From assembly GCA_016190485.1 (NCBI GenBank), contig JACPQN010000132.1:1-36338 (forward strand): a stretch of DNA of 36,338 nt, in the 5' to 3' direction. Position 1 is the first letter of the stretch. Each line of letters begins with the position of its first letter. Positions 13,399 to 33,268 of this stretch are shown in pieces. A model generated the notes under the pieces. That model saw only the letters and a list, made by a program, of their open reading frames with translations. It had not been told where the DNA came from and made no database searches. This DNA is from Chloroflexota bacterium. GTDB lineage: Bacteria; Chloroflexota; Dehalococcoidia; SHYD01. A program made the translations under genes and the position numbers.

Positions 13399-14172
13399 AT
13401 GCCTTACGAGAACCTCATCTACGAGAAGCAGGACCGCATTGCCACGGTCACCCTCAACCGGCCCGAGTATCTGAACGCCTTTTCGCCGGGCATGGGGACC
13501 GATATTGCCAACGTCTTTGATGAGATCGCCGGCGATGACGAGGTGCTGGTGACCATCCTGACCGGCGCAGGCAGAGGCTTCAGCGCAGGAGCCTTCGTGC
13601 GGGACCCCAACACCCACGCGGTGAACAGCGCCGGAGAAGGTCTCCGCGGACGGGCGGGGCGAGGATCCTTCCCCTGGGAGCACCCGAAGCCCATCATTGC
13701 GGCCGTTAATGGCCCGGCTTACGGCGCGGGGCTCAATCTGGTGCTCTCCTGCGACATCATCCTGGCTGCGCCGGAGGCCCGCTTCTGCTTCCCCATGGCC
13801 CGGCTGGGCATCCTTCCGGCGTGGCCGGGCGCGCCCGCGCTGGCCCTCTACGTGGGGAAGGCGAAGGCGGCAGAGATGACGCTCATGGCCCGCCCCGTGG
13901 ATGGCGAGGACGCCTACCGCTGGGGCTTGGCCAACAAGTGCGTGCCCCTGAGCGAGCTGATGGACGAGGCCCGGGCCTGGGCGCAGGAGATCGCTGCCTT
14001 GGCGCCGCTGTCTACCAAGCTGATCAAGGATGACCTGCGGGAGAGCTTTGAGGGCCATTTCAACCGGAGCGCCAACCGCCTGCGCTTCATGGCCCTGGGG
14101 ATGACCGAAGACCGGGAGGAAGGCCACCGGGCCTGGCGGGAGAAGCGGGCCCCGGTGTTCAAAGGCCGCTAG
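13399..14172 (+). CDS. Enoyl-CoA hydratase/isomerase family protein
   Basis: TLNRPEYLNAFSPGMG, GAGRGFSAGAFVRD, GPAYGAGLNLVLSCDIILA. Confidence 0.92.
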   Translation: MPYENLIYEKQDRIATVTLNRPEYLNAFSPGMGTDIANVFDEIAGDDEVLVTILTGAGRGFSAGAFVRDPNTHAVNSAGEGLRGRAGRGSFPWEHPKPIIAAVNGPAYGAGLNLVLSCDIILAAPEARFCFPMARLGILPAWPGAPALALYVGKAKAAEMTLMARPVDGEDAYRWGLANKCVPLSELMDEARAWAQEIAALAPLSTKLIKDDLRESFEGHFNRSANRLRFMALGMTEDREEGHRAWREKRAPVFKGR

Positions 14173-14197: not shown

Positions 14198-14280
14198 ATT
14201 GTCATTCTGAGCGTTAGCGAAGAATCTGGGGTGGCTGGGCCTCCCCCAGCCAGATGCTTCACTTCGTTCAGCATGACAGT
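14198..14280. repeat. Long imperfect inverted repeat (TGTCATTCTGAGCG…GAATCTGG…CCAGATGCTTC…CAGCATGACA)
   Basis: Arms pair over about 30 nt with few mismatches; intergenic, MITE/REP-like. Confidence 0.7.
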
Positions 14281-14354
14281 GTACATGCCACGTTGTTCAG
14301 CGAACTAACGATTCGGGCCGCTAGCTCCTCAAGAGTTGCCGGTTGGTAGTTGGT

Positions 14355-14390: not shown

Positions 14391-14439
14391 TCACCTAGTT
14401 TCTCATAACGCTGGCAGACCTGTGCGAGGTGGTACATCC

Positions 14440-14694
14440 ATGAGCGACGAGTCCCTGACCCTGGCCACCCCCAACGCGTACTGAGAGAGCTGAGCCAGGT
14501 TCGTTACCCGTGAGGTAACGCCTCTGCCAGGCATCAAGCGCGTGGCCTTCGAGCTGCGCAGCAAGTCCGTTACTGTCACCTTCGACCCGCAGCAGGTGGC
14601 CGCGGAGGAGATCAGCCAGGCCATCCAGCGGGCCGACCAGGCCATGGCCGGCTCTCCCAGCAACCCCAAGAACCAGCGCTCGCCGCGCGGCTAG
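14440..14694 (+). CDS. Candidate selenoprotein: HMA-domain heavy-metal-binding protein/metal chaperone with UxxU in place of CxxC (84 aa; UGA at 14482-14484 and 14491-14493)
   Basis: In-frame translation MSDESLTLATPNAY[TGA]ES[TGA]ARFVTREVTPLPGIKRVAFELRSKSVTVTFDPQQVAAEEISQAIQRADQAMAGSPSNPKNQRSPRG*. It aligns to the HMA fold with both TGAs at the CxxC positions. SD-like GAGGTGG upstream of ATG. The stop overlaps the convergent gene's stop. Confidence 0.8.
14494..14532 (+). promoter_or_regulatory. Candidate bacterial SECIS element
   Basis: Immediately 3' of the second UGA: GCC AGG UUC GUUACC-CGUGA-GGUAAC G CCU. Perfect 6-bp apical stem, 5-nt loop containing G-U, U-rich internal bulge, AGG/CCU lower stem. 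Confidence 0.55.
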
Positions 14695-15548
14695 AGCAGC
14701 GTGGCCCTGGGGGTGCGCCGCAGCCGCCACAGGCTGGGGAAGCTGGCCCGGTCCACCTTCAGGATGGCCGCGTACTTGCGAGCCTGGTCCAGGTGGCTGG
14801 GGTCTCCGGTCCGCCGGTACCGGTTGAAGCAGTCCAGCATCTTGTCGGCGATGAGGTTCATGTCGAAGCCGAGAATGTAGCGCTCGCTGGCCTCGTTCAT
14901 GGCCGACATGTAGATCTCGAAGTAGGAGGCCAGCTTGGCCAGCAGCGCGCGCTGCTGGGTGGCCTCCGCCAGCTCGTGTCTCGAGGCCATCTCGTAGTAG
15001 CTGCGGCCGGTGGACACGTGATAGGGGATGTCCACCGTGGGGGCAGTCGTGTAGGACCTGCGCCAGCGGTTCCGGCGGCGGCGCCGCAGGCTGGCGGGAA
15101 AGACCCCGGTGATAAAGAGAGAGTAGTCACCCAGCTTGCGGTACGCCTCGAAGCGGTTGGGAAAGCGGGCGGCGCTCTGCATCTCGTCGAGCAAATCCGA
15201 GAGCATGTGGCCGGCGCGCCGGTTGTCCCGCACCAGGGGGAAGAGGTCCCGGGTGAGGAGGAACCCGGCCATCATGCCGGAGAGATAGTCGATGACGGAG
15301 CCGTCGGTGCTATGACGGTTGACATAAAGTGTCTTTATGAGGAACAGATCGAAGAGGCTGCGTAGGGGAATGCTCTTGATCTCGCCGATGTCGTCGTAGA
15401 AGGCGCTCAGCAGCGCCTCCACCTCGGCGCTGAAGGCGGCGTCGGCCACGTTCTTTCCCGTGTGCTGGAGGATGGCGCCCTTAAGGCGCTGAATCCTCTC
15501 CTCTAACACCCACATCGGCCCGTCGGCTCGTCGCGCGTATTCTCCCAT
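14691..15548 (-). CDS. Hypothetical protein (285 aa)
   Basis: Long ORF with sensible composition, 3-nt gap from the upstream gene; no family recognised. Confidence 0.75.
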   Translation of the reverse strand: MGEYARRADGPMWVLEERIQRLKGAILQHTGKNVADAAFSAEVEALLSAFYDDIGEIKSIPLRSLFDLFLIKTLYVNRHSTDGSVIDYLSGMMAGFLLTRDLFPLVRDNRRAGHMLSDLLDEMQSAARFPNRFEAYRKLGDYSLFITGVFPASLRRRRRNRWRRSYTTAPTVDIPYHVSTGRSYYEMASRHELAEATQQRALLAKLASYFEIYMSAMNEASERYILGFDMNLIADKMLDCFNRYRRTGDPSHLDQARKYAAILKVDRASFPSLWRLRRTPRATLL

Positions 15549-31000: not shown

Positions 31001-33268
31001 TCACAGCTTGCCCATTGCCCTCAGGATGCGCTCGGCGGTGGCGGGTACCTGGGCCACTCGCGCGCCGGTGGCCTGGGCTACCGCGTTGGCGATGGCGGCG
31101 GCGCCGGCCACGATGGGTGGTTCGCCTACGCCCCGCACGCCGTACAGCGGGTCGGTGGAGGGCACCTCCACGATGAGCGCCTGAATGCGGGGCAGGTCCA
31201 GAGCGGTGGGCATGCGGTAGTCTAGCAGGCTGGGGTTGCGCAACACCCCCTGCTCGTCGAACTGGAGCTCCTCGGTGAAGCCAATGGCCAGGGACTGGGC
31301 CACGCCACCCTGGATCTGTCCCTCCACCAGCATGGGGTTCACCGCAAAGCCCACGTCCTGCGCGCATACGGAATCCAGCACCGTCAGCGCGCCGGTGTCG
31401 GGGTCCACCTGGACCTCCACGGCCTGGCAGGTGAAGCCGGGCGCCTGAGGCGGCGACGCAGCGCTGCCCCGGCCCACGATGGGGGAGTAGCCGCCTCCCA
31501 TGCTGGTGGTGAGAGTGGCCATGAGATCAAAGCCGATGGCCTTCTCCGGCGAGCCCTTGACCCTGATCTTGCCCTCCGTGGCCTCCAGGTCGCCGGGGGC
31601 GGCCTCCAGCTTCTCCGCCGCGATGCGTGTCATCTGCTCCAGCATGTCTGCGGCGGCCAACTGGATGGCCCGGCCCACGGTGCGCAGGGTCTTGCTGCCG
31701 CCGCTCTGGCCTGCGTAGGGCGCGCTGCTGCTGTCGCCGGTGCGCACCCGGATGGAGGAGAGGGGCAGCCCCAGGGCTTCCGCCGCGATCTGGGTGAAGG
31801 AGGTGTTCACCCCCGTCACGTCCACAGATCCCACTTGCACTGAGACCGTGCCGTCCAGGTTCAGGGTCATAGTGGCGCCGGCGGGTTGCATGCCGCCCAG
31901 CCAGCCGCCCACGGCCACGCCGATGCCTCGGTTGGGCAGCCGCTGGCTCCGGCGCTGCCACAGCGCCGACTCCTTCACCCGCTCCAGGCACTCCCGCAGC
32001 CCGATGCGGGGGTACTGGCGATTGTTGGGCAGCAGGTCGCCCTGGGCTACGGCGTTCTTCAGCCGGAAGTCCATGGGGTCCAACCCCAGGGCCTCGGCCA
32101 TCATGTCCATTTGGGACTCGATGGCGAAGGTGACCTGGGGGGTGCCCGGCGCCCGCAGTGCGCCCACGCTGACTTTGTTGGTCAGCACCTCGAAGCCGTC
32201 GATGTGGAGATTGGGCCACCGGTAGTAGCCTCCGATGAGGCTGCACCCCGCCAGGAGCGGGCCGCCGGGGAAGGCGCCCGCGTCGAAGATCACCTTGGCC
32301 TGGATGGCGGTAAGAGTGCCGTCCTTTCTGGCGCCGGTCTTCAGTTCCACGATGGCCTGGGGAGCGGGAATGGCGGCCTTCAGGTCCTCGCTGCGGCTCA
32401 TGGTCAGCTTAACCGGCCGGCGGGTAATGCGGGCCAGGGTGGCCGCGATCCCCTCGGTGAGGGGGGTGATCTTGGAGCCGAACGCGCCGCCGGGCTCCAC
32501 GCCCACCACCCGGATGCGGGTCTCGGGCACGCCCAGGATCCGCCCCAGCTCGGCCCGCAGGGGGAAGATGCCGCGGTTGCTGCTCCACACCGTGAACTGG
32601 CCGGTGATGTCGTAGTCCACCAGGGTGTTGTGGGTCTCGATGTAGCCCTGGTGCACCATGGAGGAGCGCCAGGCGTGCTCCATCACCAGGTCGGCCTCGG
32701 CGAAACCCTGCTCCACGTCGCCGCGGCTGAACACCAGGTGCTGGGAGATGTTGGGGTTAGCTTCCTGCTTCTCCTCGCCCGAGGCGTCGATGGTGGCGTG
32801 TTCCTGCTCCTCGGAGCGGTCCACCTCGTGGAGGGGCGCCCGCACCCGGGGCGACCCCGGCCGCATGGCCTCCGCCGGATCGATCACCGCCGGGAGCTCC
32901 TCGTACTCTATCCGAATCAGGTCCAGCGCCTCTTCTGCCGCAGAGAGATCAGTGGCAGCGACCGCAGCGACGGGCTGCCCGTAGAAGAGCGCCTCGCCGG
33001 GGGCCAGCACGGCCCGCCCCCGACTGGTCACGTCTCGTCCCAGGTTGGGCACGTCCTCGGCCGTGATGACGGCCACGACGCCTGGATAGGCCCTGGCGCG
33101 AGCGGTGTCAATGCCCTTGATGCGGGCATGGGCGTGGGGGCTGCGGAGGACTTTGGCGTAGAGCATGTGGGGCAGCGAGAGATCCGAGGCGTATTGCAAC
33201 TCCCCGGTAACCTTCTCCGCCGCCTCGACCCGGGTGGCCCGGGTGCCAACGATAGACGTGGTGGCCAT
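31001..33268 (-). CDS. Xanthine dehydrogenase/aldehyde oxidase family molybdopterin-binding subunit
   Basis: ATRVEAAEKVTGELQYASDLSLPHMLYAKVLRSPHAHARI; GVEPGGAFGSK; GALRAPGTPQVTFAIES; YGVRGVGEPPIVAGAAAIANAV. Confidence 0.95.
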   Translation of the reverse strand: MATTSIVGTRATRVEAAEKVTGELQYASDLSLPHMLYAKVLRSPHAHARIKGIDTARARAYPGVVAVITAEDVPNLGRDVTSRGRAVLAPGEALFYGQPVAAVAATDLSAAEEALDLIRIEYEELPAVIDPAEAMRPGSPRVRAPLHEVDRSEEQEHATIDASGEEKQEANPNISQHLVFSRGDVEQGFAEADLVMEHAWRSSMVHQGYIETHNTLVDYDITGQFTVWSSNRGIFPLRAELGRILGVPETRIRVVGVEPGGAFGSKITPLTEGIAATLARITRRPVKLTMSRSEDLKAAIPAPQAIVELKTGARKDGTLTAIQAKVIFDAGAFPGGPLLAGCSLIGGYYRWPNLHIDGFEVLTNKVSVGALRAPGTPQVTFAIESQMDMMAEALGLDPMDFRLKNAVAQGDLLPNNRQYPRIGLRECLERVKESALWQRRSQRLPNRGIGVAVGGWLGGMQPAGATMTLNLDGTVSVQVGSVDVTGVNTSFTQIAAEALGLPLSSIRVRTGDSSSAPYAGQSGGSKTLRTVGRAIQLAAADMLEQMTRIAAEKLEAAPGDLEATEGKIRVKGSPEKAIGFDLMATLTTSMGGGYSPIVGRGSAASPPQAPGFTCQAVEVQVDPDTGALTVLDSVCAQDVGFAVNPMLVEGQIQGGVAQSLAIGFTEELQFDEQGVLRNPSLLDYRMPTALDLPRIQALIVEVPSTDPLYGVRGVGEPPIVAGAAAIANAVAQATGARVAQVPATAERILRAMGKL

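Follow-up and report, generated by a model that had tools for sequence, protein, structure and literature searches.

A predicted selenoprotein gene with two UGA codons at the metal-binding motif of an HMA-like protein in a Chloroflexi genome

The short reading frame at positions 14440 to 14694 of a 36,338-nucleotide stretch of Chloroflexota DNA (contig JACPQN010000132.1, referred to as the window in its full length) contains two TGA codons precisely where HMA proteins carry the two cysteines of their CxxC motif. This raises the question whether the frame encodes a protein with selenocysteine (Sec, U) at both positions or is a decayed or differently decoded gene. Proteins whose whole metal site consists of two selenocysteines are rare, and none was found characterised. 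The locus would also provide a compact test system in which to ask whether a single SECIS can serve two UGAs this close together, and whether soft metals are bound more tightly by a diselenol site.

The reading frame and its UGA codons

The features of the gene are as follows.

14440..14694, plus strand: predicted gene of a UxxU HMA selenoprotein, 84 codons and a TAG stop (sequence, Pfam and homologues)
14482..14484, plus strand: UGA at the first CxxC cysteine, predicted Sec15 (translation and alignment)
14491..14493, plus strand: UGA at the second CxxC cysteine, predicted Sec18 (translation and alignment)
14426..14432, plus strand: Shine-Dalgarno-like GAGGTGG, 7 nt 5' of the ATG (from sequence)

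The frame runs from the ATG at 14440 to the TAG at 14692-14694 and, as the initial annotation had described, sequence and translation contain exactly two in-frame TGAs and no other internal stop. Read with Sec, the product is MSDESLTLATPNAYUESUARFVTREVTPLPGIKRVAFELRSKSVTVTFDPQQVAAEEISQAIQRADQAMAGSPSNPKNQRSPRG. The gene is missed by annotation because the standard frame stops after residue 14, which shows how UxxU genes escape notice. In the alignment with CxxC HMA proteins, U15 and U18 fall on the two cysteines, so that the in-frame UGAs stand at residues which are Cys in homologues, as had been proposed. The accompanying assertion of an M-x-C-x-x-C signature has to be corrected, as the Met is absent (A-Y-U-E-S-U), with Ala instead and an aromatic residue before the first U. 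The CTAG common to the gene and the convergent ORF 14691-15548 on the minus strand is present as reported. A Shine-Dalgarno sequence precedes all three window-type genes introduced below and reads AAGGAG in the homologues.

HMA homology and predicted fold

With Cys at the positions of U, the protein matches the Pfam HMA profile PF00403 at 42.5 bits against a cut-off of 24.8, which was the first check proposed for this locus, and the match is also recovered when the stops are read through. UxxU lies in the aligned CxxC columns and places two chalcogen ligands at CxxC spacing in the first loop. AlphaFold2, run on six sequences with Cys modelled in place of Sec, predicts for the window protein (mean pLDDT 84.6) strands at residues 4-9, 32-38 and 43-48 and helices at 16-26 and 55-70. 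The model is therefore b-a-b-b-a, in comparison to the beta-alpha-beta-beta-alpha-beta order of HMA domains, since it forms no fourth strand, and its tail has low confidence. The top Foldseek match in the PDB is MerP (1osd, E 5e-6, TM 0.70/0.81), followed by Cu chaperones. An HMA-like fold is supported by Pfam, by PDB profile hits and by this structural resemblance to MerP and Cu chaperones. The protein also lacks the conserved Met of GMxCxxC and the GY near the end which, together with the missing fourth strand, means that classic Cu-chaperone behaviour is not to be assumed.

Selenocysteine machinery

The genome is a Chloroflexi MAG of 2.9 Mb that is 84% complete. It encodes SelA (559.5 bits), a full-length SelB (364.9 bits against a cut-off of 242; 656-aa open frame), tRNA-Sec with the anticodon UCA (72.4 bits) and SelD (389.5 bits), the last of which has a single in-frame TGA at SCAGU, its conserved Sec site. 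The initial annotation had named a genome without Sec machinery as the main ground for abandoning its reading, and this objection falls with the finding of selA, selB, selC and selD. Directly upstream of selB lies a gene (L009:64-1260) whose protein resembles, by eye, the DUF3179 family in its Cys form; DUF3179 is a listed selenoprotein family.

Other UxxU genes and their distribution

An HMA search of the same genome returned seven matches, of which the window gene and two others have TGA-N6-TGA at the motif. One is a paralogue of the window gene on contig 113 (L006) with UKGU (...AAFUKGUFEYVTREV...), the other, on contig 126 (L007), is a fusion of a MerT-like part and HMA with UAGU (...DKMTUAGUATAV...), giving the genome three UxxU genes of two types.

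L007:985-1719, equal to contig 126:4524-5255 of the same genome: MerT-HMA gene, predicted UxxU selenoprotein of the second type

The fusion scores 35.6 bits for HMA and 24.9 bits for MerT, the latter below the MerT cut-off of 32.9. It comprises a membrane part resembling MerT, which contains a CC pair, and a C-terminal HMA domain with UAGU. Both types recur in G004, a groundwater MAG ('Chloroflexi bacterium', contig JACQUQ010000128.1) that belongs to a different family of the order, where the window-type homologue is 54% identical and has UKGU and the MerT-HMA homologue (L116) is 67% identical and has UAGU. The proposed search for homologues thus yielded UxxU in this second MAG and CxxC in the nearest homologues outside the order. 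No UxxU match was obtained in G001-G003, the three remaining genomes of the order, which is weak evidence of absence as they are only 57-81% complete. Among 394 genomes sampled from the class, only the three window-type genes match a DNA pattern built on the TGA-N6-TGA-VTREV-PG core with one mismatch allowed. Outside the order, searching 399 genomes of the phylum with a profile and scanning 85,462 genomes with patterns yielded only HMA proteins that are CxxC where the motif was read. One alignment behind the profile searches (A4) includes a sequence with a partial N-terminus (L060). Because the scan patterns are tight and may miss distant members, the restriction to the order holds as sampled.

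A SECIS-like hairpin

14502..14520, plus strand: bSECIS-like hairpin CGTTACC-CGTGA-GGTAACG, loop 14509-14513 (relatives and randomisation tests)

The loop of this hairpin begins 15 nt past the second UGA and 24 nt past the first, and a single element could therefore serve both. The other two window-type genes have the same loop at the same distance of 15 nt, within TTACC-CGTGA-GGTAA in the paralogue and GACC-CGTGA-GGTC in the second MAG, and the MerT-HMA genes have a CGTGTC loop on a stem of 5-7 bp at 23 nt, which is kept in the second MAG. All five UxxU genes thus carry a hairpin whose xGUG loop starts 15-23 nt past the second UGA, and they share this loop with selD, whose UGA is followed, in the five genomes of the order, by a strong hairpin with an xGTGC-type loop. 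Val codons that pair within the stem change jointly from GTT/GTA to GTG/GTC, which turns a U-A into a G-C pair and keeps both the pairing and the protein.

The hairpin was tested by synonymous-codon randomisation with the xGTG loop taken from SelD as prior. When this loop is required, the observed stem arises by synonymous recoding with P values of 0.0024 (window gene), 0.013 (paralogue), 0.012 (second MAG) and 0.001 (MerT-HMA fusion, L007), and none of 29 CxxC HMA controls from relatives has an xGTG-loop hairpin of at least 4 pairs. Without the loop requirement and in fixed register, the window-type genes give P values of 0.04, 0.17 and 0.18 against synonymous shuffles and the fusion 0.007; as the loop-free values are weak, the sharing of the loop carries much of the hairpin argument. 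Minimum free energies compared with synonymous shuffles give P values of 0.3-0.7 and are uninformative. A SECIS-like stem-loop is hence found 3' of the UGAs of the window gene, though the loop-free test is weak and Rfam SECIS models have no match in 14400-14700. The single SECIS_1 match in the genome (L008, contig 29:21626-21685) scores 31.3 bits, below the gathering threshold of 35, and lies on the opposite strand to a long ORF.

Taken together, the full Sec machinery, the kept UxxU homologues, the SECIS-like hairpin and the Cys-containing relatives support the reading as a UxxU selenoprotein. Very probably, the window gene is a genuine selenoprotein gene, and selenocysteine is in all likelihood inserted at its UGAs.

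Selection and gene neighbourhood

The 51 codons after the UGAs are free of indels, and dN/dS is 0.42 between the window gene and the second MAG, 0.46 between the paralogue and the second MAG and 0.88 between the window gene and the paralogue. These values are compatible with a functional protein and are not strong alone, so that they do not make a strong case for purifying selection; the high-GC codon bias may limit synonymous change.

The window copy is flanked by an enoyl-CoA hydratase gene (13399-14172) and by the convergent ORF 14691-15548, which has no Pfam match. No metal-resistance gene adjoins it, and the window contains no DUF169 gene. The intergenic stretch 14199-14290 (CATTCTGAGCGTTAGCGAAGAATCTGG...CCAGATGCTTCACTTCGTTCAGCATGACA) resembles a dispersed palindromic repeat; the repeat search at its thresholds returned no inverted pair there, and exact copies of the right half occur only here among the fetched loci. 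The paralogue and its counterpart in the second MAG each adjoin a DUF169 gene, and the two DUF169 proteins are 58% identical.

L093:7053-7790 and L060:4329-5060: DUF169 genes beside the UxxU HMA paralogue and homologue, possible partner

The DUF169 gene is divergent from the paralogue and downstream in the second MAG, and the link therefore comprises two loci in two genomes with different arrangements. To our knowledge, DUF169 has no known function and no known metal role. Among the five genomes of the order, DUF169 is present only in the two that carry UxxU genes, and no UxxU HMA gene was seen beside the other three DUF169 genes of these two genomes. Another DUF169 gene of the window's genome (L112, contig 141 near 32062-32661) lies near a gene resembling, by eye, an ArsR-type regulator. 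DUF169 is also mentioned in a table that lists genes associated with those for selenium (PMC5322559).

Proposed function and alternative readings

In the proposed mechanism, ribosomes would decode the UGAs at 14482 and 14491 as selenocysteine via SelA, SelB, SelD and tRNA-Sec of the same genome, with a single SECIS hairpin just past the second UGA lying within reach of both. The product would be a small cytosolic selenoprotein of HMA fold whose diselenol site may bind, buffer or pass on a soft metal, in line with the site that the initial annotation had put forward as inference. This role is the likeliest because the UxxU loop sits where HMA proteins hold Cu(I) or Hg(II) between two thiolates. 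Mercury or another soft metal is most clearly indicated by the UxxU MerT-HMA genes of the same two genomes. A small cytosolic HMA selenoprotein with Sec at both UGAs, acting as a diselenol soft-metal binder or chaperone, is considered the probable overall reading. Metal binding itself, given a selenoprotein, is rated at least as probable.

The main rival, owing to the loss of the classic HMA features around the motif, is a genuine UxxU selenoprotein with a redox role, in which a diselenide/selenol pair would reduce a partner or a peroxide and the HMA-like scaffold would have ceased to carry metal. A redox function is assumed for most known selenoproteins of prokaryotes, many of which have UxxC or CxxU (PMC9312934), and a redox role would suit the loss of the Met before the motif, of the GY turn and of beta-4, as well as the location of the paralogue and its counterpart beside DUF169. 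However, the predicted fold is that of HMA/MerP and not thioredoxin-like, and both genomes also have a second, separate UxxU HMA domain joined to a MerT-like mercury transporter domain, which points to metals. A redox role is accordingly rated as unlikely, if still a serious contender.

That the frame is an HMA pseudogene carrying two chance nonsense mutations is highly improbable, even though the dN/dS of 0.88 between the two paralogues is high and no metal genes lie beside the window copy. Two random TGAs in 84 codons would be placed in this way about once in 3,486 cases, in agreement with the initial argument against chance, and the same placement occurs in two further genes of the same genome and two of another MAG. 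In these five genes TGA is found only at the two Cys codons, with no frameshift and no other stop, and Shine-Dalgarno sequences in the three window-type genes, the full Sec machinery, the conserved hairpin and the UxxU kept in another family of the order all contradict decay. A change of code that makes UGA a codon for an ordinary amino acid is more improbable still, as nothing was found in its favour, UGA is apparently a normal stop (it ends the homologue in the second MAG, for instance, in line with the earlier view that general recoding is unlikely), selD has its UGA at the conserved Sec site and the genome has tRNA-Sec and SelB. Since UxxU is conserved in five genes of two MAGs, decay to a pseudogene and a change of code were rejected, and sequencing error is considered improbable.

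A wider hypothesis may be attached to the diselenol soft-metal reading, namely that the window-type proteins form a separate free-standing diselenol HMA family, with one SECIS for two UGAs nine bases apart, which together with DUF169 would serve selenium-dependent handling of soft metals or selenium in the order. This is put forward as a tentative possibility, with the balance against it.

Relation to known families

UxxU HMA selenoproteins are already described as a kind, which answers a question posed in the initial annotation. NF041115 (UxxU_metal_bind, 'metal-binding (seleno)protein') is listed as a UxxU protein with 2 Sec and as 'putative mercuric reductase' (PMC13188914), a family that is predicted only, and the same entry is carried by PMC9312934. 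Like NF041115, the window protein is a small HMA protein with Sec at both CxxC cysteines. At 33.7 bits it falls well short of the cut-off of 95 and is therefore a divergent branch rather than a member; the window-type motifs AYUESU and AFUKGU lack the Met of GMxCxxC, and the window model has no fourth strand. This branch probably works in the same way as NF041115, and what appears to be new is a divergent, unannotated UxxU HMA branch in a poorly known Chloroflexi lineage.

NF045683 (MerT_CopZ_Se, 'MerT/CopZ fusion-like heavy metal transport selenoprotein') also has an HMA/CopZ domain in a selenoprotein, and its architecture resembles the MerT-HMA fusion (L007), which scores 40.2 bits against a cut-off of 375. 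In contrast, the window protein has no MerT part, is only 84 aa long and scores 19.2 bits. The CxxC metallochaperones MerP and CopZ share the fold and motif position but differ by Cys in place of Sec, and the window protein scores 30.3 bits for MerP TIGR02052 (cut-off 92.55) and 37.6 bits for CopZ NF033795 (cut-off 91). MerP has a signal peptide, whereas none is evident by eye in the window protein. As all of these scores fall below the profile cut-offs, assignment to NF041115, NF045683, MerP or CopZ was rejected. Sec in soft-metal transport has further precedents in MerP and MerT-like selenoproteins reported from ocean metagenomes (PMC2398784) and in the UxxC cation-transporting ATPase E1-E2 selenoprotein and the MerT selenoprotein (PMC13188914); these last two are membrane proteins with one Sec each, whereas the window protein is predicted to contain two.
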